Positions 4,503 through 28,246 of a DNA stretch of 64,000 bases are shown one piece after another. Within the stretch, counting starts at the first letter, position 1. Each line of letters opens with the position of its first letter. The notes beneath the pieces are model-generated. The model had not been told where the DNA came from and did not search any database. It saw only the letters and a program-made list of their open reading frames with translations. A program made the position numbers and the translations under genes. Source of the stretch: Salipiger pentaromativorans (lineage in GTDB: Bacteria; Pseudomonadota; Alphaproteobacteria; Rhodobacterales; Rhodobacteraceae). Location of the stretch: positions 7,041-71,040 of the forward strand of contig NZ_JAMDHK010000007.1 of the NCBI RefSeq assembly GCF_024721115.1, given 5' to 3'.

Positions 4503-6130
4503 CAGACCGCACCGGCGGCCAGAAGCGCCGGCCCCGGCACGATGAGCCGCTCCATCTCGCGCGGTTCGAACTTGGTCAGACCGCCGGCATAGGTCCGGCC
4601 CGAGCGCTGCGAGATATTGCTCTGAAGATAGGAGACGAGGCTTTTCCTCACCGTGTCGCTCATCGGGTCGCGCGGATAGAGCCCGTGCGCGATATTGATG
4701 TGGCGGGCATCGACCTGGTTGATGATGAAGCCGGGCGGGCGGCGCGCCATATAGGTCGAGATGATCGGCGCCGCCGCGCGCAGCCCCACCGACCACCAGG
4801 CCTTTCGATGGCTGGCCACATAGCCCTTGTTCGCCCCCATCGCGCGCGCAACCTTGAGAAATTTCGTCACCGCCTTGCGCTCGGCGCTGTCCAGCTCATC
4901 GAGATCGGCAGGCAGGTCGATCACCCGGCGCAACTTACGGGAATCCGCCAGCAGCCCGCCGGCCTCGAGCACCTCGCGCGCGCGCGTGATCGTCGGAAAC
5001 AGAACCGTCTCGGGCAGACCGACGCTGTGGGCGCCGGCGATCCAGACGCCGTTCGCCCCGGTCACCGTGCCCCGGTGGACGCGGCAAAGCTCTCCCAGCT
5101 CGACATAGCCCTCGGGCGGCTTCTCGCTGTCGCGGGTCAGATGAGACCAGCGCCCCTCGGCCGCCAGACGCTCGCGCGGGACGGTCCGCCCCTTGCCCAG
5201 CTCGCCCAGAGAGGCGAGATCCTCGATGCGCCGGAAAGACACCGCGCGCGGTTTCGCCCCGATGTCGAAGGTCGCGATGGCGGCGGTTGCGGCTGCATCC
5301 GGGAAGGGCTGGGCGGTCGGGTCGATCACCGTCACGCTCCTGCCGCCCAGCCGGCCCAGCATCAGCGCACGCACCAGCGCGCCATAGTTCACGTCCAGCC
5401 ATTCCGATGCGGTGATGAATGCGCCGAAATCCCCGGGCTTCGCGCTGCGCGCCGTCGCCAGGAAGAAATAAGCGTGCAGCCCCGCCAGCCGGCTGGCGGG
5501 CAGGTCCAGCTTTGCCGCCTCGGCGGTCAGCCATGTCTTCCACACCGCCCCGATCTTGTGGTGACGCACATAGGGCGGATTGCCGATATAAAGCGAGCTG
5601 CCCGCCACCTGCCCAGTGAAGCGGCGGTAATCTCCGAGAAGGATGCGCGCGCGGCCTCCCTGACCGGTCACGGCCAGATTGGCGCGGGCCATCAGCGCCG
5701 CCAGCGGATCGACGTCGATGCCGACCAGCTCGGCCTCGGGAAAGGCCTGTCCCGCACGGCACAGGAACCGCGCCGAGCCGACGCCGGGGTCGATCACGCG
5801 GGCGGGCGTGCGCGTGGCCGCGGCCCAGTCGATCATCGTCTGGACGATGGGCGCCGGGGTATAGGTCGCCCCCTGGTCGCGCCGCACCTCCGGAGAGCGC
5901 AGCACCGAGAACGCATCCCCAAGCGGATCCTCTCCGGCCAGGATACGGTCCTTCAGGTCTGCAATCCGGTGCGGCGACACCGGGCGCGCCTCGGCGGTTT
6001 TGGCAAGCGCGGTCTCTGCCGCCGACAGCGCCCCGCCGGCCTGCGCCGCGCCAAGCGCCAGCGCCATTGCGACCAGATCGTCTTCGGTCGCGAAGATGCG
6101 GTCGCGATCCGCAAGGCCACCGACCATCAC
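4499..6130 (-). CDS. N6-adenine DNA methyltransferase of a type II restriction-modification system
   Basis: Transfers a methyl group from S-adenosylmethionine to adenine, protecting host DNA from the adjacent nuclease. The 543-residue protein shows a gamma-class N6-adenine layout: RRDQGATYTPAPIV at 83-96 (the xxGxxYTP entry motif), SAM-binding motif I DPGVGSARF at 114-122, an acidic motif II GIDVDP at 137-142, and catalytic motif IV NPPYVRH at 184-190. The large C-terminal part is probably the target recognition domain. The start is GTG at 6130, overlapping the upstream regulator stop as GTGA; an ATG follows directly. Order and coupling (regulator, methylase, nuclease) fit ordered expression in which protection precedes cleavage. 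Confidence 0.9.
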   Translation of the reverse strand: MMVGGLADRDRIFATEDDLVAMALALGAAQAGGALSAAETALAKTAEARPVSPHRIADLKDRILAGEDPLGDAFSVLRSPEVRRDQGATYTPAPIVQTMIDWAAATRTPARVIDPGVGSARFLCRAGQAFPEAELVGIDVDPLAALMARANLAVTGQGGRARILLGDYRRFTGQVAGSSLYIGNPPYVRHHKIGAVWKTWLTAEAAKLDLPASRLAGLHAYFFLATARSAKPGDFGAFITASEWLDVNYGALVRALMLGRLGGRSVTVIDPTAQPFPDAAATAAIATFDIGAKPRAVSFRRIEDLASLGELGKGRTVPRERLAAEGRWSHLTRDSEKPPEGYVELGELCRVHRGTVTGANGVWIAGAHSVGLPETVLFPTITRAREVLEAGGLLADSRKLRRVIDLPADLDELDSAERKAVTKFLKVARAMGANKGYVASHRKAWWSVGLRAAAPIISTYMARRPPGFIINQVDARHINIAHGLYPRDPMSDTVRKSLVSYLQSNISQRSGRTYAGGLTKFEPREMERLIVPGPALLAAGAVC

Positions 6131-6453
6131 GCGGATGTCTCCTGCCGGCGCTGCGCCGGGGTCCGGAACGGCAGGACCTTGATGTCCTTCTCCTTCTTCC
6201 GGGTCTCCGCGATGTCGAAACTGTTCTGCATCTGCATGAGCTCGTCCATCGGCACCCCGAATGCCTTTTCGATCCGCAGCGCCATTTCCGGCGACAGATG
6301 CGCACGCGCATTGAGGAATTTCGACAGGGCGGGCCGCGTCACGCCAAGCGCCTGCGCCGCATCGGTCACGGAAAGGCCCAGCGGTGCGATCACCTGCGCC
6401 CGCACAAACCCGCCCGGATGCGCCGGAGCCTTATTCGTTGTTTTCGCGATCAT
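6127..6453 (-). CDS. XRE/HigA-type helix-turn-helix regulator of the restriction-modification operon
   Basis: A 108-residue DNA-binding protein of the HigA-antitoxin type. The N-terminus has the family hallmark HPGGFVRAQVIAPLGLSVTDA followed by a helix-turn-helix at about 25-60 (AAQALGVTRPALSKFLNAR). The start ATG at 6453 was chosen because HigA-type proteins begin only about ten residues before the HPG motif; a longer frame adds about 90 residues of unconvincing sequence. No HigB toxin is adjacent. Its stop overlaps the methyltransferase GTG, so it probably acts as the controller (C-protein-like) or autoregulator of this operon rather than as an antitoxin. That role is inferred from position. 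Confidence 0.82.
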   Translation of the reverse strand: MIAKTTNKAPAHPGGFVRAQVIAPLGLSVTDAAQALGVTRPALSKFLNARAHLSPEMALRIEKAFGVPMDELMQMQNSFDIAETRKKEKDIKVLPFRTPAQRRQETSA

Positions 6454-6778
6454 TCCCGACCATCCCCTGACATGCTTCGCAGCAGAAGCACTGTGCACTG
6501 TAGCGTCACGATTTACAATCATGTTCCGTCTATGTTCCGAAGATATATCCCCCCGCGCAGAGTGCCGAAGGATCACAGGCACCATGTATCGGGACACAGG
6601 GTTTTCGGGCGCCCGGGCCGCAATTGCAGCGATAACGCGGCGGAAATGACGCATCCAGGGCAATTCGCATCCTCCCGCGCCGGTTTTTCTTGTTTCCGAA
6701 ACGCGGGACTTTACTCTGCTCGCAGCCAAGCCGGAATTTCAATCACGTCTGAGCCCGTATTCTCTCGGAGGTCTTTCC
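6454..6778. other. Divergent promoter region between the restriction operon and the bcsS-like gene
   Basis: These 325 bases hold no supported gene and visibly more A+T than the flanks. Near 6488-6502 lies a partly symmetric element containing GTGCAC (CACTGTGCACTGTAG), a candidate site for the restriction operon regulator. A good Shine-Dalgarno GGAGG at 6767-6771 sits 7 bases before the bcsS-like ATG. I could not place convincing -35/-10 pairs. Confidence 0.45.
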
Positions 6779-7495
6779 ATGACATCTCTCTCGGCACGCA
6801 TTTGGACCCTTGCAGCAACGACCGCGCTTTCCCTGACCCTCGCCGTCACGGATGCCCGCGCCGACGACACCCTGGACACCGTCCTGTTCACCGGGATCGA
6901 CGGCTATGACGGGGGCGCCGGCATCTATGGCGGCTTTGTCACCGCGCTGAACGGCGACATCACGGCCAGCGGATGGACGCTGTCTGCCAATCTCGGCTAT
7001 TCGCAAAGCTGGGGCTCGTTCTCGGATACCGACAGCACCGGCGCGAGCGTGCTGCTCGGATATCAGTGGCATACGCCGGGATATTACGCCTCGCTGGCGC
7101 TCGGGGTCGATGTGATCGAAAACACCGAGGATCCCGATACCGGAGCCCGCAACAACGGAACCCATACCGGCTATATCCTTCAGGCCGGCTTCCAGACCAA
7201 ATCCGTCGATGCGCTGTTCTTCCAGGGCTATGGCGCCTATCTCTCGGCGAACGAGCGTCTTTACACGCAGCTCCGCTCCGGCTGGGCCAGCGAGAAGATG
7301 ACCTTCGGCCTCGAGGCGATCTATGCCGACGAGCGCGACTCGGCCGAAACGGTCCGCTACGGGCTCTTCGTGTCGGATCTGCCGCTCGGCAATGGCAGTT
7401 TCGGCATCTCGGCCGGCTATCACGACGACCGGGGCAGCGACGACGACGGTGCGTATATCGCATTCGAATATTCCATCCCCCTGTCGCTGCGCTGA
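6779..7495 (+). CDS. bcsS: BcsS-like outer-membrane beta-barrel protein
   Basis: A 238-residue exported protein with a clear signal peptide (hydrophobic core about 10-22, cleavage near AxADD at 28-30). The rest is alternating hydrophobic strands rich in Tyr, Gly and Ser, ending in strands such as YIAFEYSIPL, as expected for an outer-membrane barrel. The pattern of FTGIDGYDGG, FVTALNGDI, LLGYQ, GLFVSDLPLGNG and ISAGYHDD matches what I know of the alphaproteobacterial BcsS family, found with cellulose-type secretion genes. No cellulose synthase is here; it stands at the edge of Pel-like genes, so it may be their outer-membrane component. The last 76 bases overlap the converging epimerase gene. 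Family membership is likely; role is inference. Confidence 0.72.
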   Translation: MTSLSARIWTLAATTALSLTLAVTDARADDTLDTVLFTGIDGYDGGAGIYGGFVTALNGDITASGWTLSANLGYSQSWGSFSDTDSTGASVLLGYQWHTPGYYASLALGVDVIENTEDPDTGARNNGTHTGYILQAGFQTKSVDALFFQGYGAYLSANERLYTQLRSGWASEKMTFGLEAIYADERDSAETVRYGLFVSDLPLGNGSFGISAGYHDDRGSDDDGAYIAFEYSIPLSLR

Positions 7496-8496
7496 AGCGG
7501 CGCGGCCAGGGTCACCGCGGTCCAGGCCGAGGCACAGATCTCGGCCAGATCGTGCCGCGCGCGCCAGCCAAGCAGGCGCTGCGCCGCCGAGGTGTCGGCC
7601 CAGGAGGCCGGAATATCCCCCGCGCGCCGCGCGCCCAGGCTGTGCGGAACGGCGCAGCCGCTCACACGCTCGTAACAGCGCAGCAACTCCAGCACCGTCG
7701 CACCGCCGCCGGACCCGAGGTTGAGCGCCGTCCCGGGCGCCAGCCCCTCGATCCGGGCCAGCACCGCGAGATGCCCGGCGACCAGATCGTCGATGTGCAG
7801 GAAATCGCGCAGCCCGGTGCCATCGGGCGTGTCGTAATCGCTGCCAAAGATCTCGATCCCCGCCGTGAGCCCCGCCGCAACCTCGGACACGCGCGCCACG
7901 AGGCTGTCGCAGCCGGGCGCCTCGTCGCCCGGACGGATCAGCGCGGGCGCAGCGCCGGCGGGATTGAAATAGCGCAGCGAGACGGCGCGACGGCCCTCCG
8001 CCGCGCGCGCCCATCCCGACACAAGCTGTTCTGCCAGGCGCTTGGTCTCGCCATAGGGGCTGAGCGGACGTAGCGGATGCGCCTCGGGGATCGGCAGCGT
8101 TTGGGGCGCGCCGTAGACCGCAGCCGACGACGAAAAGACCAGGGTCTCGCAGCCCGCCCGCGTCATGGCGTCGAGGATGCCCTGCACCCCGCCCACATTG
8201 ACCGCGTGATACCGCGCCGGATCCTGCACAGAGGCCGCGACATCCTTAAGCCCGGCGAAATGGATAACCGACTCGGCGCGGAAACGCGCCATCGCGGTGG
8301 CACAGGCCCCGACATCGCGCACATCCGCGACCAGAACCTGTGGCCGGCGTCCCGTCTCCTCCGTGAGCCGGGCGATGACATCCCGCGAGGCGTTCGAGAA
8401 ATCGTCGATGACAAGAACGTCATGGCCGTCGCGCAAGAGGCGAAGCACGGTGTGGCGACCGATATAGCCCGCGCCTCCGGTGGCCACGACCCGCAT
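7420..8496 (-). CDS. GalE-family UDP-hexose/UDP-HexNAc 4-epimerase (possible PelX)
   Basis: An NAD-dependent extended short-chain dehydrogenase of 358 residues interconverting UDP-glucose/galactose or their N-acetyl forms. The Rossmann motif GGAGYIG is at 7-13, catalytic serines around SSSAAVYG at 122-129, and Y148xxxK152. The residue matching the E. coli GalE gate Tyr299 (in PAYWAD) is S298 here (PASWAD). A small residue at this position is known to admit UDP-GlcNAc/GalNAc, as with human Cys307. Beside pel genes this suggests supply of UDP-GalNAc for a Pel-like polymer, as reported for PelX. The start MRVVATGG was chosen over a longer frame because the nucleotide-binding motif must lie at the extreme N-terminus. 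The C-terminal 25 residues overlap the bcsS-like gene. Confidence 0.88.
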   Translation of the reverse strand: MRVVATGGAGYIGRHTVLRLLRDGHDVLVIDDFSNASRDVIARLTEETGRRPQVLVADVRDVGACATAMARFRAESVIHFAGLKDVAASVQDPARYHAVNVGGVQGILDAMTRAGCETLVFSSSAAVYGAPQTLPIPEAHPLRPLSPYGETKRLAEQLVSGWARAAEGRRAVSLRYFNPAGAAPALIRPGDEAPGCDSLVARVSEVAAGLTAGIEIFGSDYDTPDGTGLRDFLHIDDLVAGHLAVLARIEGLAPGTALNLGSGGGATVLELLRCYERVSGCAVPHSLGARRAGDIPASWADTSAAQRLLGWRARHDLAEICASAWTAVTLAAPLQRSDRGMEYSNAIYAPSSSLPRSS

Positions 8497-8694
8497 CAGG
8501 CCACCCCAATTCCAAAATCGACCCGTATCGCCGCCGCGATACCCCGCTGAAACCCCATGCCCACCCCGAGGGTTTTCCGAATACCTGAATCTGTCCGGCG
8601 CGACCTTGCGCGCATGCTTCAATACCGAGAATTGTGCCGGGCGGCGGCCGATCCTGTCAAGCCGACCCAGCGATCCGCGCGCGGGACGGCAAGA

Positions 8695-9243
8695 CTATGA
8701 CGTTTCGCTGAGCATCCGCGCCATCAGCGCAGCCGCCTGCACGCGGATCGCCGGGTCGGCATTGTCGAGCGCCAACCGGAGCAGCGCCTCCCCCTGCTCC
8801 GGGAGCCTGCTGGCGAGCCAGGCCAGCACCGCCTGTTTCTCCGCCCGCGTGCCATCCTCGAGGACAGCGGCGGCAGAGCGCGCCGAAAGGGCCTCGGGCG
8901 CCGCCCGGCGGCCTTGCGCCAGTTCCCGCGCCAGCCCGTGGCGCGGCGGCGGCAGATCCTCGCCCGCGAGGCGCGCATACCAGGGTGCCAACGCCCGCGC
9001 GCGGGACGGATCGGGCGCCGGCAGCAGCAGGGACAGCGCCGCTCCGGCAGGCCCCGCAACCGCAGTCAGAAGCAGTGCCAGCGGCATCGGCGCCCCGAGG
9101 CCGCGCCAATGCGCCGCCAGTGCTGCAAGGACGACAAGCCCGCAATGCGCCGCGACGCGCGCGAGCTGAGGCACCGATCCCGGAAGGCCGGCCCAGATTG
9201 CCAGCTCGGCCAGCAGCAGCGCGAGTAGGAGCGCCCGCCTCAT
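8695..9243 (-). CDS. pelE: PelE-like membrane protein
   Basis: A 182-residue inner-membrane protein. Three hydrophobic segments (about 3-22, 34-50, 53-75) precede a C-terminal helical region of about 100 residues with HEAT/TPR-like spacing (ending LALDNADPAIRVQAAALMARML). P. aeruginosa PelE is likewise a small membrane protein with a helical cytosolic part and forms a synthase complex with PelD, PelF and PelG. The call rests on this architecture and on its place directly after the PelD-like gene, with an ATGA stop-start overlap, not on strong sequence identity. It is followed after 198 bases without a gene by the epimerase on the same strand. Confidence 0.6.
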   Translation of the reverse strand: MRRALLLALLLAELAIWAGLPGSVPQLARVAAHCGLVVLAALAAHWRGLGAPMPLALLLTAVAGPAGAALSLLLPAPDPSRARALAPWYARLAGEDLPPPRHGLARELAQGRRAAPEALSARSAAAVLEDGTRAEKQAVLAWLASRLPEQGEALLRLALDNADPAIRVQAAALMARMLSETS

Positions 9244-9773
9244 TGCAGGCCGGCAGCCCGGTCGCGCAGCTCGGCGCTTTGGCGCAGCGCCTCTTCCGCG
9301 CGCTGTTCCAGCCGCGCGGCATCGGCCCGCGCGCCGGCGAGCGCCTTGTCCTGAGCGGCGAGCTGCCGTGCCATCCGGTCGCGCATGCCCCCGACCAGCA
9401 GCGCCGCCGCCGCCCAGGCGAGCGGCAGCGCGCCTGTCTCGGAGATCCGCCGCAACACCCCCGTTGCGGGCCCCGGCGACAAAACGGCGATCTCCAGCCC
9501 GCCGCACAGTATGGCAGCGGCCATGCCCCAGCCCAGACCGTAACGCGCGGCCATCAGCAACACCGGCAGCCAGAACGGATGTACCGCCAGCCCCTCCGGC
9601 GACCAGCGCCCCGTCAGCAGGTAGAGCAGCCCCAGCAGCAGCCCGACCATGGCCAGCAGTTCGACCGCCGGCAGCGCGCGCTGGCGCGGCGCGGGCCCGG
9701 CCGCCGGTCCGCTGTCGGGCGGCGGGTGCGGCAAGGGTTCCGTCTGCGGGGGAATCGTCTTGGCAGGCTGCAT
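9240..9773 (-). CDS. pelD: Short PelD-like membrane protein without GAF/GGDEF domains
   Basis: A 177-residue protein from the ATG at 9773. A proline-rich N-terminus is followed by hydrophobic segments at about 34-54, 66-98 (probably two helices) and 115-130, then a charged coiled coil to the end (131-175). This is the layout of the membrane part of PelD. Canonical PelD (about 455 residues) continues into a GAF and a degenerate GGDEF domain that binds cyclic di-GMP. Here the stop overlaps the next start (ATGA), so no room exists for those domains. An alternative TTG start at 9833 would add 20 residues and sit 13 bases from the divergent gene. The PelD label is by position and topology; it could be another small synthase-complex subunit. 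Confidence 0.55.
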   Translation of the reverse strand: MQPAKTIPPQTEPLPHPPPDSGPAAGPAPRQRALPAVELLAMVGLLLGLLYLLTGRWSPEGLAVHPFWLPVLLMAARYGLGWGMAAAILCGGLEIAVLSPGPATGVLRRISETGALPLAWAAAALLVGGMRDRMARQLAAQDKALAGARADAARLEQRAEEALRQSAELRDRAAGLQ

Positions 9774-9846
9774 GCGGAGCGGGCAATATCCAGAACATGG
9801 CCGGTCTTCCCGGCCCGGAAAGGCAATGTCCAAGGCCTAGCACGGA

Positions 9847-12090
9847 ATGGCGCGTACCGACAGCATCTCGCATCTCCTCTGCCGGATCACGGCGGTGCTG
9901 CTGTGTCTGCTCCTCGGCACACTGCCCGCAGGCGCAGAGGCCCCCGCCACCGACACCCGGCGGATCCTCGCGCTTTACGACGGGCGCGAAACCGACCGGC
10001 TGGACGAGACGCGCCTGCACCGTCTGGCCGAAATGCCGCTCAATTTTCTCGGCTACGACCTGATCTATCACGATCTCGCCCAGGGGCTTCCGCCGCCCGC
10101 GCCCGAGGCCCGCATCCTCACCTGGTTCAGCGGCCCGCTGCCCGACCGCGCCGGCTATCTCGCCTGGATCACCGCGCAACTGTCGCAGGGGGCCAGGCTT
10201 GCCATTCTCGGCGATCCCGGCCTCGCCTCCGAAGGCGCGGGCGATCTGACCGGCGCGCTCCTGACTCAGCTCGGGCTCGAGATCTCGGGCACCCTTCCCG
10301 TCACGCGGGATGCCGCGCTCCTGTGGCAGGATGATGCGCTCTACGGGTTCGAGCGGGCGCTGGGGCCGGTGCTGCCTCCGCTGCCGCTGGTCTCTGCCCG
10401 GAGCCCGCAGGTGGTGACGCATCTGGCGATCCGCGCCCCGGACGGCCGCGCCAGCGCGGTGATCAACAGCGGCCCCCGGGGCGCCTGGGTGCCGCCGGGC
10501 TATGCGGTCTACAGCGCCGGAACCGCAGGCTACAAATGGCTGATCGACCCCTTCGCCTTCTTCGACCGGGTCTTCGGGCCCGGCACGCCGCACCCGGTTC
10601 CGGACGTCACGACCGTTTCGGGACGCAGGATCTATTTCAGCCATATCGACGGCGACGGCTGGGCGAATGTCGCTGAGACGCCGGATCCCTCGGGGCGCAA
10701 GCGCATCGCCGCACAGGCGGTGCATGACGAGCTGATCGCCCCCTATCCCGATCTGCCGGTGACCGTGGGCATCATCGCGGGCGACATGGACCCGACGCTC
10801 GGCGGCACCCCGGCCAACCGCGCCGCCGCGCGGGCGCTGCTGGCGCTGCCGCAGGTCGAGGCGGCGGCGCATGGCTATACCCACCCGTTCGACTGGGGCT
10901 TTTACGCGGACTATGACCGCCAGACCGAGGAACGGCTGATGGCACGCGCCGCCGACGCTGTGGCCGCCGCCCGACCGGCGCCGGCACCGCTGGCCCGGAT
11001 CGCCGCAAGCGCCGCGCAATGGCTGGGCCTGCCGGACACACAGGCACCGGTCACCTATGCCACCGCGGCAGAAGTGCTGCCGCGCAGCTACCTCGCGCGC
11101 CCCTTCTCGCTCGACGAGGAAATCGGCGGCGCCCTGGCGACGGTCGCCGGGCTTGCCCCGCCGGAGAAGTCACCCGCGCTTTACCAATGGACCGGAGACA
11201 CGCTGCCCTTCGAAGCGGCCATCGCCGCCACGCGCCGCGCCGGCGTCGCCAATCTCAACGGCGGCAACGCCCGCTTTGACGCGCTGTTCCCGTCGCTCAC
11301 CAGCCTGCCGCCGATCGGGCGCCCCGTGGGCGCCGAACGGCAGATCTACGCGGCGGCGTCGAACGAGAGCCTCTATACCAACGAATGGACCGGGCCGTTC
11401 TGGGGCCAGGCGCTGCTGTCGCAAACGCTGGACCGGACAGAGCAGCCGCGCCGGCTCAAGCCCTTCAATCTCTACTACCACATGTTCAGCGGCGAAAAGC
11501 GCGCCAGCCTCGCGGTGCTGAAAGCGTTTCTCGACCGGGCCCGCGACGGCCGCCATATCGCGCTGCCCGCATCGCGCTATGCCGCCATTGCGCAGGGTTT
11601 CTACAGCACCCGCATCCACCGCGTGGCGGAAACCGTCTGGGAGATCACGGATCGTGGCGCGTTGCAGACCCTGCGCATCGACGACCCCGGCTCGCTCCGG
11701 CCCGACCCGCTGGCAAGCCATGGCCTGATCGGGGTCCGGCAGGTCAACGATGCGCTCTATCTCGCGCTCGATCCCGCCGTGCCCGAGGCCCGCATCGCCC
11801 TTTCCGAAACGCCCTCAAGCGCGCCGCTGCTGATCGAGAGCGGCTGGTCGCTGTCCGGGCTCACGCGCGAGGACTGCGGGTTCCGCCTTCGCGCCGAAGG
11901 GTTCGGCCCCGGGCGGATGACCTGGGGCGGGCTTCCGGACGGCGCGCTGTTCCTGACCGTCACCCGGGGCGGTGCGCCGCTCTGGTCCGGCGAGGCCACG
12001 GTCTCCGGGGGCATTGCCCGGATCGACCTGCCCCTGCGGGCACGGCCGCCGGTCGAGATCTCGGCGCGCTGCGCGGAGGGGACACAATGA
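9847..12090 (+). CDS. pelA: PelA-type polysaccharide deacetylase, secreted, lacking the hydrolase domain
   Basis: A 747-residue periplasmic protein with a signal peptide (core about 14-25, cleavage near AGA at 28-30). It matches the C-terminal two thirds of PelA: a Rossmann-like region (about 36-255) followed by the deacetylase. The metal-binding pattern is visible as FSHIDGDGW (D268, D270) and AAHGYTHPFDWGFY (H342, H346), with later family-like stretches LNGGN, NEWTGPFWGQ and LYYHMFSGEK. The N-terminal GH114 hydrolase of P. aeruginosa PelA is absent and is instead encoded by the next gene, whose ATG overlaps this stop as ATGA. Predicted role: partial de-N-acetylation of a Pel-like GalNAc polymer during export. 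It is divergent from the pelD-like gene with a 73-base gap. Confidence 0.82.
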   Translation: MARTDSISHLLCRITAVLLCLLLGTLPAGAEAPATDTRRILALYDGRETDRLDETRLHRLAEMPLNFLGYDLIYHDLAQGLPPPAPEARILTWFSGPLPDRAGYLAWITAQLSQGARLAILGDPGLASEGAGDLTGALLTQLGLEISGTLPVTRDAALLWQDDALYGFERALGPVLPPLPLVSARSPQVVTHLAIRAPDGRASAVINSGPRGAWVPPGYAVYSAGTAGYKWLIDPFAFFDRVFGPGTPHPVPDVTTVSGRRIYFSHIDGDGWANVAETPDPSGRKRIAAQAVHDELIAPYPDLPVTVGIIAGDMDPTLGGTPANRAAARALLALPQVEAAAHGYTHPFDWGFYADYDRQTEERLMARAADAVAAARPAPAPLARIAASAAQWLGLPDTQAPVTYATAAEVLPRSYLARPFSLDEEIGGALATVAGLAPPEKSPALYQWTGDTLPFEAAIAATRRAGVANLNGGNARFDALFPSLTSLPPIGRPVGAERQIYAAASNESLYTNEWTGPFWGQALLSQTLDRTEQPRRLKPFNLYYHMFSGEKRASLAVLKAFLDRARDGRHIALPASRYAAIAQGFYSTRIHRVAETVWEITDRGALQTLRIDDPGSLRPDPLASHGLIGVRQVNDALYLALDPAVPEARIALSETPSSAPLLIESGWSLSGLTREDCGFRLRAEGFGPGRMTWGGLPDGALFLTVTRGGAPLWSGEATVSGGIARIDLPLRARPPVEISARCAEGTQ

Positions 12091-13721
12091 AGGCCCGGAC
12101 ACAGGCGCTGCTTGCCTGCCTCGCCGGGGCCGCCTGCCTGCTGGCGCTGCTGCCGGGCCGCAGCGAGTTCGCCGCGCGCGCGCTCGACGACGGCGACTGG
12201 CAGGCCGCCGCTCAGGCGGCAGAGGCAGCGCCCCCCGACGGCGCCGCGTCCCCGGCGCTTCTGCTTCAGCGCGCCCGGCTGCGGTCCGAGGCCGGCGACA
12301 TTGCCGGCGCCGGAACCGCGCTTGCGGCGCTGCATCGGGCCGTGCCCGATGACCCACCCGCAACGCTGGCACTGGCGCAGCACCTGCGCGCGGCGGGGCG
12401 GCTGGACGAGGCCGACAGGCTGCTGGCGGCACTCTCTCCCGACGCGCTGTCCCCGGCCCAGCGCGCCCGGCTGGCGGCGGAACTGCAACGGGATTCTCCC
12501 GCCGCCGAACACGCCTTTCTGACGCGGCTACGGGAGGCGGGTCTGGCCGATGCGGACCAGCTCGCCCGGCTGGGCATGATCGCGGCGGCAGAGGGGCGCG
12601 ACCGCGAGGCCGTCGCCGCGCTGACCGCCGCCGATGCGCGAACCGGAGCGGGGCTGCTGCGCGAACGGCTGACCCTGCTCGACCTGCTTCTGGCCTCCGG
12701 GCGCCGCACCGAAGCGCGCAGCCGCGCCAGCCGCTGGGACGTGCTGATGCCCGGGCCGGGCATCGCGACGGTTCTGGAAGAGACCTTTGCCGCGCGCGGC
12801 CTCGCCCGCACGGTCATGGCCGGTGCGGATAGCTCCGGGGCGCCCGTCTCGCGCTGCACCCTGCCGCTGCGAAGCTGGGCGATCCAGTTGCAGTCGCTGG
12901 TCCCCGACGCGCTGCACCGCGCCACCGAGGATCTGCTGATCATCGACCCGACCGACGGCATTCCCGGCGGCGCCTTCCCCCGGGAAACCATGGAGTTGAT
13001 GAAGCACCGCCCCGACGGCACACGCCGACTGCTCATCGCCTATCTCAGCATCGGGCAGGCCGAAAGCTACCGTCTCTACTGGCGCCCGGACTGGGAGGAA
13101 ACGCCCCCCGACTGGCTCATGGGGCCCGATCCCCGCTGGCCCGGCAACTACGAGGTCCGGTTCTGGGAACCGGGCTGGCAATCGCTGATCTACGGCAGCG
13201 CCGATGCGGCGCTCGATCGGATTTTGGCGACGGGCTATGACGGCGTCATGCTGGACGGCGTGGATGCGTTCGAACGGCATCGGAGCGAACGCCCGGACGC
13301 CGCCGCCCGCATGGCCACCTTCGTGGCCGAACTCGCCCGGCACGCCCGCGCGGGGGACCCGGAATTTCTCGTCTTCCCGCTGAACGGGCACGGGCTTCTT
13401 GGCAGGGCCGGGTTCGACACGGCGATCGACGGGCTGGTGGAGGAAGACCTCTATTTCGGCCAGCAGGGCGATGGTGTGGCGAACCCGGCCGAGGGGATCG
13501 ACTGGAAACGCGACCGGCTGGTGCGGGCGACAGAGCGCGGCCTGCCGGTGCTTTTGCTGGAATACCTGGCCGACGAGGCGACACGGGCCGCCACCGCGGC
13601 GCGCGCGGAACGCGACAGGTTGCAGCCAAGCTACGGCGTGCGGCGTCTGGACCGGATCAGCGAGCCCTGGCCGGTCGTCACCGGCGCCTCCCTTGCAAAC
13701 GGCGCCGCCTGCGGCGGTTAA
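12087..13721 (+). CDS. TPR-GH114 fusion protein (PelA hydrolase domain fused to PelB-like repeats)
   Basis: A 544-residue protein with an N-terminal signal or anchor (about 7-22). Residues about 25-245 are Ala/Arg/Leu-rich helical repeats of TPR type (DDGDWQAAAQAAEAAP, GRLDEADRLLAAL and similar). Residues about 260-540 form a GH114-like endo-alpha-1,4-galactosaminidase domain with AYLSIGQAESYR at 318-329, GYDGVMLDGVDAFE at 383-396 and GLVEEDLYFGQQ further on. In P. aeruginosa the hydrolase is the N-terminal domain of PelA and the TPR region belongs to PelB, which binds PelA. Here both are joined in one chain coupled to the deacetylase gene. It would cleave or trim the polymer in the periplasm. 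Its TAA overlaps the converging pelG TAA across TTAA. Confidence 0.8.
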   Translation: MKARTQALLACLAGAACLLALLPGRSEFAARALDDGDWQAAAQAAEAAPPDGAASPALLLQRARLRSEAGDIAGAGTALAALHRAVPDDPPATLALAQHLRAAGRLDEADRLLAALSPDALSPAQRARLAAELQRDSPAAEHAFLTRLREAGLADADQLARLGMIAAAEGRDREAVAALTAADARTGAGLLRERLTLLDLLLASGRRTEARSRASRWDVLMPGPGIATVLEETFAARGLARTVMAGADSSGAPVSRCTLPLRSWAIQLQSLVPDALHRATEDLLIIDPTDGIPGGAFPRETMELMKHRPDGTRRLLIAYLSIGQAESYRLYWRPDWEETPPDWLMGPDPRWPGNYEVRFWEPGWQSLIYGSADAALDRILATGYDGVMLDGVDAFERHRSERPDAAARMATFVAELARHARAGDPEFLVFPLNGHGLLGRAGFDTAIDGLVEEDLYFGQQGDGVANPAEGIDWKRDRLVRATERGLPVLLLEYLADEATRAATAARAERDRLQPSYGVRRLDRISEPWPVVTGASLANGAACGG

Positions 13722-15112
13722 CCCGGCGCGGCGGCGCGGCGGAAGACATGCCGGGGCAGCGCGTCCAGCGCCTCGCGCATCAGAACGAAGCCGACGCCGC
13801 CCGCCGCAAGCGCCCCAAGGGGAAAACCCAGCCCCAGCGCCTGCGGACCGATCAACAGCGTCAGCCCCGTCGCCAGCGCCGTTGCGCCGCAAAACACGGC
13901 CTGCACCGCCAGATAGCGGCGCGCGAGATCCAGATTGATCAGAACCAGCGCCGCCCCGAGGGCCGCGAGGTAGAACACGCATCCCACCGCCGTGAACGCC
14001 AGAACCGGCGCCTGCAACGCGCCGATCCAGCCCGCGGCGGCCATGCGGGGCGCGGCGACACAAACCCCAAAGGCCACCACCGCCTGCACCAGCAAGACGC
14101 GCCGCAGATCGCCGACTGTCTCCTGGGCAAGATCGGCGCTTTCGGCGCGGATCTCCTCCAGCGTCGCGTGCCCCAGAAGCTCGCCCATCCAGGCCCGCAA
14201 GCGCAGGAAGAGACGGCCCTCGAAGGCGATCAGCAGCAGCGCAAGCCCCGGCACCAGCGCAAGAAGGCCGAAGAACACCGCGCCGTCATAGGCCTCGCGA
14301 TAGCGCAGGCCGATGGCCGAAACTTGCCCGCCGGGCAGGTTCCAGAGGATCAGCTTGTCAATCCACAGCCCCAGCGCCCCCAGAAGGCTGCCTCCGGCCA
14401 GCGCCCCATGCCGCCGCAGCGCCACCAGGTGGTCCCGCATCGCCGGCCAGAGCGGCCCGGCATCGAAGGGAAAGGTGCGGAACAGCGCCCGCGCCAGCGC
14501 CCCGGCGGACAGCGCGACCCCCGCGCCATAGCCCCATGCCATGGCGGCCAGCCCGCCACCCGCCACCAGCGCCCCGGCCACCGCCGCGACGCTGAGCACG
14601 GTGCCCGCCAGAAGCGCCACCGCCACGGCGCCGAAGCGCCGCAAGGCGGTCGCCTGTCCCGCAAGCCCCCAGAGCAGCGCGAACAGCGCCGCCAGCGCGA
14701 CCGAGGCGGGCATCACGCCGGAGGCCCGGTCAAGACCCAAGAGCGACAGAAACGCGGGGCAAAGCGCGGCGGCCAGCAGCACCGACAGTGCGGCCATGCC
14801 GGAAATCAGCGCGGGAATGCGCTCGGGCCGCTGCGCGTAAAGCGCATCCGACAACGCCCGCCCCGCCACCAGCAGCGGCGCCGCCGTGGCCAGCATCGCC
14901 GACAGTACGGCAATGGTCACCACGAGGCGGAAGGCGATCACCGTCTCGGGCCCTGCGATCAGCGCGACCAGCGCGCCCGCAGCGGCGAGCCCGAGCACCG
15001 CCAGCATCCACTGCCCCGCCGCCAGCAGAAGCGCCTGCCCTAGCGCCAGTGCCGCCAGACCCAGCCCCCCGGAATGGACCATATGGTCGAGCCTTATGCC
15101 GATGCCCGCCAT
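13718..15112 (-). CDS. pelG: PelG-like polytopic inner-membrane exporter
   Basis: A 464-residue hydrophobic protein with about twelve membrane segments of the MOP/Wzx flippase type, close to the 456 residues of P. aeruginosa PelG. The N-terminus MAGIGIRL is the family signature start, which decides the ATG at 15112. PelG passes the growing polymer across the inner membrane together with PelF, PelD and PelE. Its first 19 bases overlap the end of pelF, so the two are coupled. The stop is shared palindromically with the converging TPR-GH114 gene. Confidence 0.88.
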   Translation of the reverse strand: MAGIGIRLDHMVHSGGLGLAALALGQALLLAAGQWMLAVLGLAAAGALVALIAGPETVIAFRLVVTIAVLSAMLATAAPLLVAGRALSDALYAQRPERIPALISGMAALSVLLAAALCPAFLSLLGLDRASGVMPASVALAALFALLWGLAGQATALRRFGAVAVALLAGTVLSVAAVAGALVAGGGLAAMAWGYGAGVALSAGALARALFRTFPFDAGPLWPAMRDHLVALRRHGALAGGSLLGALGLWIDKLILWNLPGGQVSAIGLRYREAYDGAVFFGLLALVPGLALLLIAFEGRLFLRLRAWMGELLGHATLEEIRAESADLAQETVGDLRRVLLVQAVVAFGVCVAAPRMAAAGWIGALQAPVLAFTAVGCVFYLAALGAALVLINLDLARRYLAVQAVFCGATALATGLTLLIGPQALGLGFPLGALAAGGVGFVLMREALDALPRHVFRRAAAPG

Positions 15113-16608
15113 GGTGCCCCCCGCACGGCCAGCGCATCGGCATATAGCCCCGCATAGGCCGCCCGCATCGCATCGGCCCCATAGTGGCGCCGCACCCGGC
15201 GCCGCAGATTCTCGCCCATCTCCCGACGCTGCACGGGGTCGCGCAGCAGCTCGGCCAGCCGCGCTGCGGTCTCTTCCGGAGCGGCGAGCCGCGTGACAAA
15301 GCCCCCCGGTCCCTCCGGCGGGCGCTCGTCCTCGGCCCCCGTCAGGATTTCCCGGCAGGCGCCCACATCTGTGGCCACGCAGGGCCGCCCTGCGGCACCG
15401 GCTTCGAGCAGCGCAAGCGGCTGGCTCTCGCTGGTGCTGGTCAGCACCAGAACATCGCTCTGCTCCAGAACTTCGGTCACCGGCATGAGTCCGGGAAACC
15501 GCAGCACCCCCTCGAGCCCGAGTTTGCGCACCAGCGCGGTACAGCTTGCGTAATAGGCCGGATCCTCGTCCCAGGGCCCCGCCACGACTGCGGTGACCTG
15601 CGGCAGCTCGCGGCGCAGCGCGGCCACCGCGCGGATAAAGCAATGAATGTCCTTGATCGGCACCACCCGCCCCAGCAGCGCCACCCTCGGCGGTCCCGCG
15701 CGACGGGGGCCGATCTGCGCGAACCGCCCCGCGTCGATGCCGTTGGGGATCACGCGGCAGCGGTCGGGCGGCGCGCCCAGCATCTTCTGCTCGTGCCGCC
15801 CGGCGGCGCTCAGCGCGACGATGTCGCGACAGGCGCCATAGCAGACCTGCGCAAAGCTCTCGAAGGCCATGAGCCAGAAATCGGCGATGTCGCGGCGCGG
15901 CGCAGCGCCGATGTCGCGGTCGGGAAAGGCCGGGTGCAGCCAGTCCGCGAGCATCAGATCGACGCGGCGCTCGTTGGTATAGATCCCGTGTTCGGTCAGC
16001 AGCACCGGGCGCCCGGTCTCGCCCCCCGCCCGCGCCGCCATCAGCCCGGCATATCCCGTGGTGACCGCGTGATAGGCGCCGGCCCGCGGCAGCGGTGCGC
16101 GCAGCACCGAAAGCACCCCGCCGAACAGCGCGCGCCAGGTCCAGTAGAACTGCACGAACGAGGCGCCGGGCACGAAGCGGTCGTAGAGCGCGCAGACCAT
16201 ACCCCACCCCAGCGGCCCGTCGAGCAGCGCCCGGGCAGGGACCCCGCCTGCCTCGCGGGCCACCGCCGCCGCGAGGTCCGCCAGCGCTGCGGGCGTACCC
16301 TCTTCGAGCAGCGTGGCCATGGCCGCCGCGAGCCGCGTACCGCCGGCCTCATCCCCTCCGCCGCGCCCGCGCCCTGCGCGGTCGTCGTCACCGAGCACAA
16401 CGTCCTGCACCCAGTGCAGGTTTGCGGGCGGATCGTAGCGGCGGGGGCCGGCGCCCGGCGCCGACATCGCAATGACTCCAAAACGCCGCTCCGGCTGGGA
16501 GGCCATCAGCGCCTGCGTCCAGCCCGAGACGCCGCCGAACACATAGGGGTAGCTGCCCTCCAGGATGAGGCAGATGTCGGCCTCCGGGGCCCTGTCCTGT
16601 CGCCGCAC
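15094..16608 (-). CDS. pelF: PelF-like cytosolic GT4 glycosyltransferase
   Basis: A 504-residue soluble glycosyltransferase of the GT4 (GT-B fold) group, the polymerising enzyme of the Pel system, using UDP-GalNAc/GlcNAc. The N-terminus ADICLILEGSYPYVFGGVSG carries the PelF hallmark YPYVxGGVS. The C-terminal Rossmann half has VALLGRVVPIKDI, FPGLMPVTEVLEQSDVLVLTS and the donor-binding loop SESQPLALLEAGAAGRPC. The start is GTG at 16608, which puts the hallmark about 20 residues in, as usual for PelF. It leads pelG with a 19-base overlap. Between 16609 and 16726 nothing is seen. Confidence 0.93.
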   Translation of the reverse strand: MRRQDRAPEADICLILEGSYPYVFGGVSGWTQALMASQPERRFGVIAMSAPGAGPRRYDPPANLHWVQDVVLGDDDRAGRGRGGGDEAGGTRLAAAMATLLEEGTPAALADLAAAVAREAGGVPARALLDGPLGWGMVCALYDRFVPGASFVQFYWTWRALFGGVLSVLRAPLPRAGAYHAVTTGYAGLMAARAGGETGRPVLLTEHGIYTNERRVDLMLADWLHPAFPDRDIGAAPRRDIADFWLMAFESFAQVCYGACRDIVALSAAGRHEQKMLGAPPDRCRVIPNGIDAGRFAQIGPRRAGPPRVALLGRVVPIKDIHCFIRAVAALRRELPQVTAVVAGPWDEDPAYYASCTALVRKLGLEGVLRFPGLMPVTEVLEQSDVLVLTSTSESQPLALLEAGAAGRPCVATDVGACREILTGAEDERPPEGPGGFVTRLAAPEETAARLAELLRDPVQRREMGENLRRRVRRHYGADAMRAAYAGLYADALAVRGAPWRASA

Positions 16609-16726: not shown

Positions 16727-17482
16727 TCAGAGACCCTTGTAACATTGCAGGGCAAAGGGTTTGCTGTTGCCGCTTTTCTCGGACTTGGCAAAGAAGACGG
16801 CGTTTTCACCCGGTCTGACGGCGCTCCAGTCGATCTCGGCCCGCCACCAGTAGACCTGCCCCTCCGGAACCACATCACCGGCCGAGAACGCGGCCCCGGT
16901 CCAAGGGGTGAAGGTGGTGTTCTGACCGGGGATCGGCGGCGGATAGACACCGGGCAGCACGTCCGGGGCACCGTCTCCGATCACCGCCACATACATGATT
17001 TTGGTGAACCGCTCGGCGGGGCCCTTGGCCAGCACGGTGTAGAGACTGCCTTCCGAATAGCTCACGATTCCGCCGGTGGCTGCGTCGATCTTGTTGTCGG
17101 TCACCCAGGTTTCGAGATCGAACAGCGACTGCGCCCAGACCGAAGGCGGGTCCGACGGGATCGGAACCATCGGGTATTGCCGCTTCTGGAAGGGCAGGAA
17201 TCCGCCGCCGCCGGCCTTGCGCAGCGCCCCGGCCAGACGGGCGACCTCGGCGGCAATGTCCGCATCGTCGTAACGCCCGGCAGCCGTCAGCAGCGCGGTC
17301 AGGCGCGCCGCATCGACACCGCCCAGCGACGCCGGATCGGCCAGTGCGCCGGCCATCGTGTCCAGCGGCACCGCCCCGAATACCTCGTCATCGACCAGCG
17401 CCTTGGCAATCTCGGCATCGCTGAACCCGGCGGCGCTCAGCGCCAGCGCGATGGTGATCACGTAATCGTAAAGCGGATTCAT
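16727..17482 (-). CDS. Unknown protein, last gene of the nuclease/giant-protein cassette
   Basis: A 251-residue protein I do not recognise. Residues 1-90 are helical and Ala/Asp-rich (start MNPLYDYVITIALALSAAGF). The C-terminal half is beta-rich with aromatic residues, including TFTPWTGAAF, VPEGQVYWWRAEIDWSAV and ENAVFFAKSEKS, resembling a small sandwich or binding domain. No signal peptide, no membrane helix and no catalytic motif stand out. Its ATG overlaps the stop of the giant gene (ATGA), so it is probably made in step with it and may be its partner or chaperone; that is inference from coupling only. Confidence 0.75.
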   Translation of the reverse strand: MNPLYDYVITIALALSAAGFSDAEIAKALVDDEVFGAVPLDTMAGALADPASLGGVDAARLTALLTAAGRYDDADIAAEVARLAGALRKAGGGGFLPFQKRQYPMVPIPSDPPSVWAQSLFDLETWVTDNKIDAATGGIVSYSEGSLYTVLAKGPAERFTKIMYVAVIGDGAPDVLPGVYPPPIPGQNTTFTPWTGAAFSAGDVVPEGQVYWWRAEIDWSAVRPGENAVFFAKSEKSGNSKPFALQCYKGL

Positions 17483-20400
17483 GCGTAAAGCCCTTTCAGG
17501 AGTTCGGCGTCGGACGTCGCGATCCCCGCCGCTGTGGTGCTGCGGAAGACCGTCGTCAGCGCTTCCAGACGGCGGGTCACGGTCTCTGCCGGCACGCCGG
17601 CGCAAAGCAGTCCGGCGGCGAAGACCAGCGGGTAGGGCAGACCGTCCGGCGCGGCAGCCATCAGCGCCGCTTCGGCCGCGGCGGGAGACCCCGCCGCAAG
17701 GTTGTCGGACGAGGCGATGACCCACGCCACCAGCGTGGTGCCGCCAGCCGGCGGCGCAATCAGAAGCGGCATGGCGCGCAGCCGCAGCTCCGCCGTGAGG
17801 GGCCGGGCCAGATCGGTGGCGGCCGCCTCCGGCACCAGCCGGCGCACAAGCGGCGCAACGGTCTGCGGCGGCAGCTCCAGCCGCGAGAAGGCCCGCACCA
17901 GCGCGGCGGGGTCCGGCGGGGTGTCCCGCCAGTCGAGCGCGGCGAACCGGATCGAGAACGCTCCCAGTGCGTAATCCGGCCAGGGGCCGCGTGCCAGCTC
18001 TTCGGCCCAGAACGGCGCCACCCGCGCGGCGACCACCGGCGGCGGCAGCACCTTGGCGAGAATGCGCGCCACCTCCAGCCCGCGCTCGACCCCGGTCAGG
18101 ATATGCGCCGCGCGGACGGCCCGCGCCACGGCCACCGCCGCCTGATCGGAGGGTATCGCCAGACCCTCGCTCAGCGATGCCAGCGCGTGCGCCAGCTCTG
18201 CCGGGTCGCGCGACGGGTCGGCCTGCCACACCCCCGAACAGCCGAAGAGCGTCAGCCGGTCGGCGAGGCTCCAGTCATCGGCCCCAAGCGCGACGACCTC
18301 TGCCAGCGCCGTATCCGGATCGTCGGCGGCATGGGCCGACCAGAGCGGCAGCCCCGCCAGGGTGCGGGCGGCGAGACAGGGCTCGATCATCTGCCCCGCC
18401 GAACGGCTCGCGCCGTCCCAGATGTCGCGCAACTGCAAGGGTGTCGGGTCGGCCGCCGCAACCAGCGCGGAAAGCGCGGCCCCGGTGTCCAGCAGGGTGC
18501 CAAGCAGCACCGCGCCCAGACCGGTATCGTCCAGCAGCCCCGCCATCAGCCGACGCACCGCCGCCGCATCCAGCCCCAGATCGAGCGCCCGGACCGCAAG
18601 CAGCGGCGCCCGCTCGGCAGGGTCTTCGACCCACCAGCTCTGCGCACCGTCCTGGCGTTGCAGGCCAAGCCGGGTGCGAACCAGCAAGAAATCGTCGAGC
18701 GCGACACTGCCGTCCAGCACCGCCGCGATCTCGGACCAGCGCAGCACCAGGCCGCTGCCGGTCGTGCGCGCCACGAGCCCGATTTCCTGCACACGCCGTA
18801 GCAGATCTCCGGCGGCGGGCTGGACCGCGGGATCCGGCGCCTCGAGCACAAGCCGGCCAGAGAAACGCAGCGGCGCCGAGCCCCCCGGCGCGAGCCGGTC
18901 GCCGACGGTTTCGACCATCCCGTCGTCCCGTTCCAGCCGGGCGGTAAAGGCGATCTCGTCCGTACCGTCGTTCAGCAGGGTCAGCCCCCAGGCCGGATCC
19001 GGTGCGATCTCGAGCGCGAGGGGGTCCGAAATCGCGCTCTCGTGCCCGTCTGCCAGCGCCTGCACGACAATGTCGTAGCCGCCCTCCATCACCGTGGAGG
19101 GAACAGTCACCGGGCCGGGCAGAGCCAGGTCCTGCGTCGTCGAGCTCCCGTCCGGCGCGTCCACCGTCACCCGCACCGCCGTGGCCGCCGGATCGGCGGT
19201 GAGATCGAGCAGCAGCCCGGCGGGCACCACGCGCACCACCAGATCGCGAGGCACCGCAAGATCGTGCCGGATCGGCACCGGGCCGACCGCCACCGGCCCG
19301 GCCCAGGCCCCCACCACCTGAGGGTCGGCCCGGCGCATCCGGACGGTAAAGCTCTGGTCTGCGGTCAGGCGCGGATCGTCGTAGACGAGGTCGATGGTCG
19401 AGCGTTGCACGACCCCCGGGCTGTTCCCCGGTCCCGCCGATTGCGCCGGGCCGGTGGCCTGCTGCGACGTGACCGTCAGGTCGGGCAAGGGCATTCCCGC
19501 CGCATCCAGGATCTGGACCTCGCAGGGGCCCAGCGTCTCGAGCTGGTAGCGCACCGAGATGCCGCCTTCGGCACGGAACTGCGCGGACAGGGCGACCGGC
19601 ACCTCCAGCACCGCCAGCGTCACCGTCTGCACGGCGGTCCAGGCGCTGAAGGCGGTTTGCGTCTCGGCCCGAACCCGGGCCGAGATGGCCTGCCCCGCCG
19701 CAAGTGCCGGACCGGTGACGACTGCCCGCCCCGGAACCGAACGGTCGATCACCGGGGCCGGGTCGAGCGCGGCGCCACCCGCGCCTGTCAGCTCGAGACC
19801 GGAGCCGACCCCATCCGGAAGCGACCAGCTCACCGTCAGGGTGGAGCCGTCGAAGAGGCAGGCCAGATCGGCAGGCGGCGCGAGATCTTCCAGCGTGATT
19901 TCGAACGGGTCGCTCCACGGGCTGAGAGACCCCGGCATCTCGACCCGGACGGCGAGGCTCAGGGCCGTGCCGTCGATGAGCGCCGGGCCGGTCACGAAGC
20001 GCCGGGTCTCGGCACCCTGCGGCGTCACGACCTGGGGTGCCGGCGCCAGCGCCGCGCCGCTGGCATCGGTGATCCGCAGAACCCCGGTCGCGCCGGCTTC
20101 CGCCAGCCACTGGACATCCAGACCCCCCGCGCCCCAGCGGGCCTCCAGATCGGTCGGGGCCGCCCAGACCCGGCAGTCGGCCGCGGGGCCCGGGGCGCTG
20201 GAAATCTCGCCATCGCGATGCGCCGTGGCCTGCGCGGTGAACCTCCCGGTCGCCCCTGCCGGCAGCGCGACCCTTGCCTCGGGGCTGTCCGCCGTGACCG
20301 CCTGCGGCGTCCCCAGCGCCGTGCCGTCGGGCATCGAGAAGACCACCTCGCCGGTGGCGCCCGCCGTCAGCGCAACGGTCGCGACAAGCGCCGAACCGTC

Positions 20401-27113: not shown

Positions 27114-27115
27114 GG

Positions 27116-28237: not shown

Positions 28238-28246
28238 CCCCGGCGC

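Follow-up and report, generated by a model that had tools for sequence, protein, structure and literature searches.

A Pel-type exopolysaccharide locus in Salipiger pentaromativorans from a lineage apparently lacking the PelB pore

The sequence analyzed here, hereafter the window, is a stretch of 64,000 nucleotides from Salipiger pentaromativorans (Rhodobacteraceae; assembly GCF_024721115.1, contig NZ_JAMDHK010000007.1, positions 7,041 to 71,040). It bears an eight-gene locus that resembles the pel exopolysaccharide clusters. In our view this is probably an intact and working locus for a Pel-type polysaccharide rich in N-acetylgalactosamine (GalNAc) and galactosamine (GalN), assembled without the PelB outer-membrane barrel and PelC and exported through borrowed outer-membrane machinery. 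Joint analysis of PelF and PelG supports the placement of the window in a distinct Pel lineage that lacks the barrel and is larger than the window alone. The eight genes of the locus, each an open reading frame, have the following window coordinates:

6779 to 7495, plus strand: BcsS-family secreted protein, predicted small outer-membrane beta-barrel (PF17036, 2e-24)
7420 to 8496, minus strand: galE, UDP-hexose 4-epimerase type (TIGR01179, 4e-92; 308.6 bits against a cut-off of 262.3)
8695 to 9243, minus strand: pelE-like inner-membrane protein, 182 amino acids (phmmer, about 1e-12 to the PelE of comparison loci L035 and L061)
9240 to 9833, minus strand: pelD-like, membrane domain only, 177 to 197 amino acids (phmmer against longer PelD proteins, 5.8e-10 to 3.3e-15)
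9847 to 12090, plus strand: pelA-type periplasmic deacetylase, CE21-like, 747 amino acids (PDB 9cgy, 3.5e-65)
12087 to 13721, plus strand: TPR domain fused to GH114, 544 amino acids (PF03537, 1.4e-20; TPR_19, 2.7e-5)
13718 to 15112, minus strand: pelG, inner-membrane exporter (PF16933, 1.1e-63)
15094 to 16608, minus strand: pelF, GT4 family glycosyltransferase, the polymerase (NF038011, 4.4e-110)

The strands imply three pel transcription units, galE-pelE-pelD (minus), pelA with the TPR-GH114 gene (plus), and pelG-pelF (minus), which agrees with the three units proposed in an earlier reading of the same DNA (the sequence-only reading). The bcsS gene, by itself on the plus strand, would form a further unit; it is divergent from an XRE regulator gene and overlaps galE tail to tail.

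The core Pel proteins named by the sequence-only reading were recovered by independent models. PelF scored 369 bits against NF038011 (cut-off 100) and is the single copy above this cut-off in the source genome, where the next matches are partial and 31% and 28% identical. PelG scored 216 bits against PF16933 (cut-off 29) and has 11 hydrophobic segments. The PelA-type protein aligns with Pseudomonas thermotolerans PelA (9cgy) from chain residue 252 onward; the alignment begins past the hydrolase domain, so that an N-terminal GH166 hydrolase is not part of the window protein. The residues aligned with H526, D528, D530, H600, H604, E723, and H761 of Pseudomonas aeruginosa PelA, whose roles were taken from PMC12022489, are all kept (H-D-D-H-H-E-H), and the protein thus has a CE21 deacetylase domain with its catalytic residues. 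The epimerase was likewise correctly called as GalE type, and it would be the supplier of UDP-GalNAc.

PelD and PelE matched no Pel model in Pfam or NCBIfam. The locus profiles used for PelD, PelE, PelA, PelG, GH114, and TPR were seeded partly with window sequences, and single-sequence phmmer searches served as the independent check for PelD and PelE. PelD matched the PelD proteins of four barrel-type loci (L061, 3.3e-15; L059, 1.1e-14; L035, 1.1e-13; L062, 5.8e-10). PelE, which has three hydrophobic segments and a position that fits pelE, matched in L035 and L061, both of barrel type, with no phmmer match in L059 or L062. The start codon of pelD may be the ATG at 9773 or the TTG at 9833, and with either start the protein is as short as previously described: it has no GAF or GGDEF match, where a full PelD would comprise a membrane domain, GAF, and GGDEF. 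Across the comparison loci, GAF_3 was detected in 39 of 40 PelD proteins of barrel loci versus 12 of 42 from those without (five of these lying among the barrel loci). Because the degenerate GGDEF domain was rarely recognized in either set, loss of cyclic di-GMP binding is argued from PelD length and domain content; since the window PelD comprises the membrane domain only, control by cyclic di-GMP through PelD has probably been lost. A gene of the LuxR/response-regulator type lies beside 9 of the 39 loci of the barrel-less lineage described below (e.g., L034:437-1300, L058:10935-11774, L070:15726-16451, and L134:13582-14226) and perhaps replaces cyclic di-GMP control there.

The protein encoded downstream of pelA consists of an N-terminal hydrophobic segment, a TPR domain, and a GH114 domain (endo-alpha-1,4-polygalactosaminidase family). 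Its TPR_19 match is slightly below the cut-off of that model, and a PelB-TPR profile matched the TPR part at 1.4e-16. The sequence-only reading had placed the hydrolase of PelA on this fusion; the hydrolase is indeed separate from PelA, but it belongs to GH114, a family often encoded near pel (30 of 39 barrel-less loci and 21 of 42 barrel loci). The TPR-GH114 fusion itself occurs only in the window (1/97 loci).

A profile built from four PelB barrels found no barrel in the whole source genome, which is rated 99.99% complete; of the TPR-plus-16-stranded-barrel architecture, the TPR part only is present. The same search matched in all seven other pel genomes of the class (E values of 1.3e-46 to 6.6e-205), in every case at most 6 kb from pelG. 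Within the window's family, none of the four pel genomes, namely the window's own (G000), G450, G025, and G424, gave a PelB barrel: the profile gave matches of 1.9e-5 or weaker to the TPR part in G000, G025, and G424 and none in G450, and the G025 match (8e-4) has an internal stop and reaches profile position 313 of 526. PelC had no match at E ≤ 0.001 in the whole source genome or in G450, G025, and G424. The reported lack of both proteins in the window was therefore borne out genome-wide, although the absence of PelC is unremarkable because PelC is rarely matched in pel genomes of the class (unmatched in six of the seven other genomes and found in one). The possibility of a full pel operon at another site in the genome was rejected, as there is one PelF above the cut-off and no match to the PelB barrel or PelC. 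No product matched a profile of another polysaccharide system, except BcsS, whose family is named for cellulose clusters.

That the TPR proteins end in an overlooked barrel was also considered and judged unlikely, since the TPR matches span most of each protein listed. None of the TPR-protein C termini looked outer-membrane-like by eye, and a crude composition check separated them poorly from a true barrel. Clustering of 319 genes that flank the 39 barrel-less loci brought out regulators, ABC proteins, and a giant RTX-type protein, among others; no barrel was recognized among the clusters by eye, and no barrel scan of them was made.

To place the locus, 97 pel loci were compiled: 10 genome stretches, 6 plasmid stretches (Paracoccus, Cereibacter, two from Sulfitobacter, Azospirillum, and Paraburkholderia), 80 named genome loci, and the window. 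The 80 named loci are the best 80 of 462 from a PelF-alignment search, ranked by likeness to the window PelF, so that counts in this set are no guide to population frequencies; an earlier scan of genome contigs with the window PelG as the query gave no match. Loci were typed by profile as having a PelB barrel or an OPX protein. Ten loci were excluded from the trees, nine of them on contigs shorter than 7.5 kb (L101, L115, L122, L127, L133, L138, L143, L148, and L161, of which L143 and L161 have barrel matches); the tenth, L060, has a pelF interrupted by the end of its contig. The remaining 87 loci comprise 42 of the barrel type, 21 of the OPX type, and 24 with neither. L073 was assigned to the barrel type by hand; the barrel profile missed it, and its protein matches the PelB of PDB 9h80.

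In the tree of joined PelF and PelG, a branch with a support of 97.5 sets apart 39 loci without a PelB barrel (19 OPX and 20 neither), and the window PelF and PelG place with them. The distinct subtype proposed by the sequence-only reading is thus wider than was suggested. The same branch has a support of 47 in the PelF-only tree, which leaves the wider grouping dependent on the joined data. Six further barrel-negative loci (L110, L112, L118, L120, L151, and L158) lie among the barrel loci, outside the 39. At least 7 kb of sequence is available on each side of pelF in 27 of the 39 loci (13 OPX and 14 neither); the other 12 have less than 7 kb on one side, which makes the absence calls there less sure. 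No barrel-less or OPX-type Pel system of Gram-negative bacteria was found among the matches listed by searches of open-access papers, with subscription papers and preprints outside the search.

The window forms a branch with a support of 100 (PelF plus PelG) together with Roseovarius L085, Histidinibacterium aquaticum L099, and G450. H. aquaticum has the gene order and orientation of the window, but TPR and GH114 are separate genes. G450 has the same gene set, again with separate TPR and GH114 genes, but its pelE, pelD, and galE lie on the opposite strand and its pelD is a weak match. PelF is 48% identical to the window protein in Histidinibacterium and 43% in G450, whose PelG is 35% identical. 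The nearest PelF relative, from a Roseovarius metagenome-assembled genome (MAG; L085:9878-12225), has pelF and a short pelG with no other pel gene within 10 kb, and may be a remnant or broken locus. PelF above the cut-off occurs in 3 of 61 genomes, including the window's, and in none of 19 congeners, and a PelG search at E ≤ 1e-15 matched in at least 3 of 394 genomes of the family and at least 19 of 385 of the class, the window's genome being among each. These PelG counts are lower bounds, since the search missed G025, which has PelG.

Many members of the barrel-less lineage carry a candidate replacement for the barrel that the sequence-only reading could not have inferred from the window. A Wza-like OPX protein is encoded in 19 of the 39 barrel-less loci versus 0 of 42 barrel loci, and a PelB barrel and an OPX protein never occur together (0/97 loci). 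The OPX gene lies within or beside pel in Methylobacterium, Aureimonas, Oricola, Roseibium, Cereibacter, Sulfitobacter, Paracoccus, and others. Two members scored 29.4 and 23.6 bits against PF02563, over and under its cut-off of 28, and the annotation of three plasmid copies is that of a polysaccharide export protein. An AlphaFold model of the L086 protein (14 sequences; mean pLDDT of 75.7, pTM of 0.44) has an N-terminal membrane helix, Wza-like domains, and a long helical hairpin, with no confident outer-membrane-spanning part. Foldseek matched the protein to Wza and to the class-3 OPX protein WzaB (9n9a, 6.2e-6) and the hairpin to LipC (5nen, 8.2e-4, TMt 0.84) and HlyD (5c22, 3.5e-3).

The OPX-type loci also differ in PelA. 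Among the 48 PelA proteins of sufficient length for this check, the metal-binding histidines are kept in 18/18 from barrel loci and 13/13 from loci with neither component versus 4/17 from OPX loci; the site is lost in L087, L088, L090, L091, L109, L034, L058, L069, L070, L071, L086, L129, and L137, of which the L070 and L071 proteins are short and poorly aligned. The PelA proteins without a metal site are probably dead deacetylases kept for another role. On the PelF tree, one of the two traits (PelA inactivation and OPX) changes four times and the other three times; these counts are descriptive only, being too few for a statistical test of whether PelA inactivation depends on OPX.

Several OPX-type loci are unusual in placement or location. 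Microvirga L118 and L151 have OPX and no PelB barrel, yet fall inside the barrel group, which suggests a second, independent replacement of the barrel. L086, from a gammaproteobacterial Thiohalocapsa sp. MAG, groups with Rhodobacterales loci, which suggests transfer or MAG contamination. Loci L068 to L071 are on plasmids of Paracoccus, Cereibacter, and Sulfitobacter and may therefore move between strains; PLSDB lists all four as non-mobilizable. A giant secreted RTX-type protein (up to 2,017 amino acids, several being cut at locus ends) is encoded at L034:16982-19999, L071:153-4046, L134:1638-7394, and similar places, and is a candidate matrix protein. Matches to it (phmmer, 1e-10) lie near 17 of 45 loci without a barrel versus 2 of 42 barrel loci, some of which the RTX repeats alone may explain.

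The window itself is not of the OPX type, as a pel-type OPX protein is absent from both its locus and its genome. Supply of this protein in trans was rejected for the source genome and G450 with a narrow profile (none at E ≤ 0.001), and with a broader profile the whole protein was not found in any of the four genomes of the window branch: the OPX part matched weakly (7.4e-5 to 7.1e-4), and the hairpin part alone (profile positions 212 to 403) matched at 8.9e-8 to 2.8e-13. The source genome does encode two general Wza-like OPX proteins on other contigs, C7 and C3, both lipoproteins as judged by eye.

A route for the polymer can be proposed from these parts. GalE would make UDP-GalNAc, as its family suggests, and PelF would polymerize it; PelG, with PelD and PelE, would then move the chain across the inner membrane, both steps being established for the families. 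In the periplasm, PelA could partly deacetylate the chain, consistent with its catalytic residues, while the anchored TPR domain may guide it and the fused GH114 domain trim it. The chain would finally leave through outer-membrane machinery that is not dedicated to Pel. For this last step, one of the two general Wza-like OPX proteins is a tentative choice, to which we give somewhat less than an even chance, and the adjacent BcsS protein is an unlikely one. Several points weigh against the route as a whole. The exit is argued from absence, the general OPX genes may serve other polysaccharides, and the Pel-type product is deduced from enzymes alone, with PelD and PelE assigned through remote similarity. 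One betaproteobacterial PelB (L073) escaped the barrel profile, and for two of the seven control genomes the genus code is also that of a genome that seeded it. The search for the barrel and PelC in Histidinibacterium and Roseovarius extended no farther than 10 kb from pelF.

The sequence-only reading had suggested that the subtype could have its own outer-membrane exit, taken here to mean the flanking BcsS-like barrel. Membership in the BcsS family is clear (86.9 bits against a PF17036 cut-off of 24), but a barrel fold was not confirmed, as a single-sequence AlphaFold prediction of the mature protein had a mean pLDDT of 34. As a general exit of the lineage BcsS was rejected, because the family is absent from the genomes of three branch-mates (G450, Histidinibacterium G792, and Roseovarius G793); the window protein also had no match in the other 96 pel loci by a single-sequence search, which distant members could escape. 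It could still serve this strain as a dedicated Pel pore, having been recruited on the joint arrival of pel and bcsS, although we think this improbable. The gene directly adjoins galE-pelE-pelD and is the genome's only copy, and bcsS (found in 1 of 61 genomes) and above-cut-off PelF are both absent from the 19 congeners, so that they look co-acquired. One Methylobacterium BcsS gene lies beside a BcsA-like protein, which indicates that the family does accompany a polysaccharide synthase; other copies there have other neighbors, and other BcsS genes adjoin neither cellulose nor pel genes (all judged by eye). On the other side of bcsS are the XRE gene and a restriction-modification pair, and it may be island cargo. 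Its mature length of 210 residues would allow about 12 strands, counted by eye, versus the 16 of the PelB barrel (PMC12141448). Within PF17036, the window protein differs from the BcsS of cellulose clusters in adjoining pel: the neighbors scanned, to which the search for bcsA was confined, are pel genes, an amidase, the XRE regulator, and the restriction-modification pair, and none is a cellulose synthase gene.

Three other explanations concern the route, the product, and the state of the locus. The polymer might exit via a TolC-type or general tunnel reached by an adaptor, which in many relatives would be the OPX-hairpin protein of the locus; the membrane helix, Wza-like domains, and hairpin of the L086 model and its similarity to WzaB, LipC, and HlyD suggest as much. 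We regard this as quite unlikely for the window, since the whole protein is absent from its genome, where the hairpin part alone matches on another contig (C35:248421, 2.8e-13, profile positions 215 to 403), and a hairpin resemblance by itself is weak. That Pel-family enzymes make a polymer of different sugar or linkage here is doubtful as well: the window PelG is only 23 to 35% identical to other PelG proteins found, and PMC7112194 cautions that a divergent pel locus could produce another polymer, but the PelA active site, the GH114 domain, and GalE each indicate alpha-1,4-GalNAc/GalN chemistry. A decaying remnant without an exported product, as the reduced Roseovarius L085 locus of the same branch might suggest, is very unlikely, because the window reading frames are open, the PelA catalytic residues are kept, and the same gene set persists in Histidinibacterium and G450 at the identities given above. 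More speculatively, a mainly alphaproteobacterial Pel lineage may have abandoned the PelBC exit, with many members using an inner-membrane-anchored OPX protein with an HlyD-like hairpin, a crossover of synthase-dependent and Wzx/Wzy pathways, and most of these losing the deacetylase and thus exporting an uncharged chain; the window branch would have kept the deacetylase and lost or never had the OPX protein, and this strain would have recruited the small BcsS barrel as its pore. We think this full scenario improbable.

Comparison with described systems sets the locus apart from each of them. It shares PelF, PelG, the PelA deacetylase residues, a PelD homologue, a putative PelE homologue, and a TPR scaffold with pelABCDEFG of P. 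aeruginosa but lacks the PelB barrel, PelC, and the GAF and GGDEF domains of PelD, carries its hydrolase as GH114 on the TPR protein rather than as GH166 in PelA, and seems to be divided into three transcription units. With pelDEA(DA)FG of Bacillus cereus (PMC7112168) it shares a core without PelB and PelC and a deacetylase-only PelA, and the streptococcal PelD is likewise described there as lacking GGDEF; unlike the Bacillus system, the window's cell should have an outer membrane to cross and has the additional TPR-GH114, GalE, and BcsS proteins. Composite OPX/beta-barrel translocons (PMC9601211 and PMC9603273) also employ a D1-D2 OPX protein without its own membrane-spanning part, as modeled for 1 of the 19 OPX-type relatives, but they serve Wzx/Wzy-type pathways, and the window itself has no such OPX protein. 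According to PMC9603273, a crossover between OPX and synthase-dependent pathways had not been identified at that time. A derived pel cluster of free-living Rickettsiales (PMC9352585) is similarly a divergent alphaproteobacterial pel locus, but it has a described functional equivalent of PelB, whereas the window has no barrel. Fission of pelB, rearrangement of pelA, and losses from the locus have been reported among pel operons (PMC7112194).

The surroundings of the locus bear on its origin. A XamI-type restriction endonuclease, an N6 methylase, and the XRE regulator adjoin the pel island at window positions 3588 to 6729, and the DNA of the XamI-type pair is 74 to 76% identical to plasmids of Sphingomonas, Sphingobium, and Sphingopyxis. 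That neither pel nor BcsS occurs in the 19 congeners is consistent with their arrival as one block. At positions 17479 to 29302, the window encodes a 2,774-amino-acid protein with one fibronectin III match, together with three more open reading frames on the same strand without a Pfam match at E ≤ 0.001.

Synthase-dependent polysaccharides have been described as exiting through a TPR protein and a 16- to 18-stranded barrel, and a Pel lineage without the barrel makes this rule testable. The lineage points to an OPX adaptor as the replacement in Methylobacterium, Cereibacter, Sulfitobacter, Paracoccus, Aureimonas, and Roseibium, and because most OPX-type loci have lost the PelA metal site, exit route and polymer charge appear to be coupled; if this coupling is real, OPX-type systems would mostly export an uncharged chain. 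The window carries a Pel-type locus of a large, apparently undescribed lineage without the dedicated pore, whose polymer must apparently take another way out of the cell.

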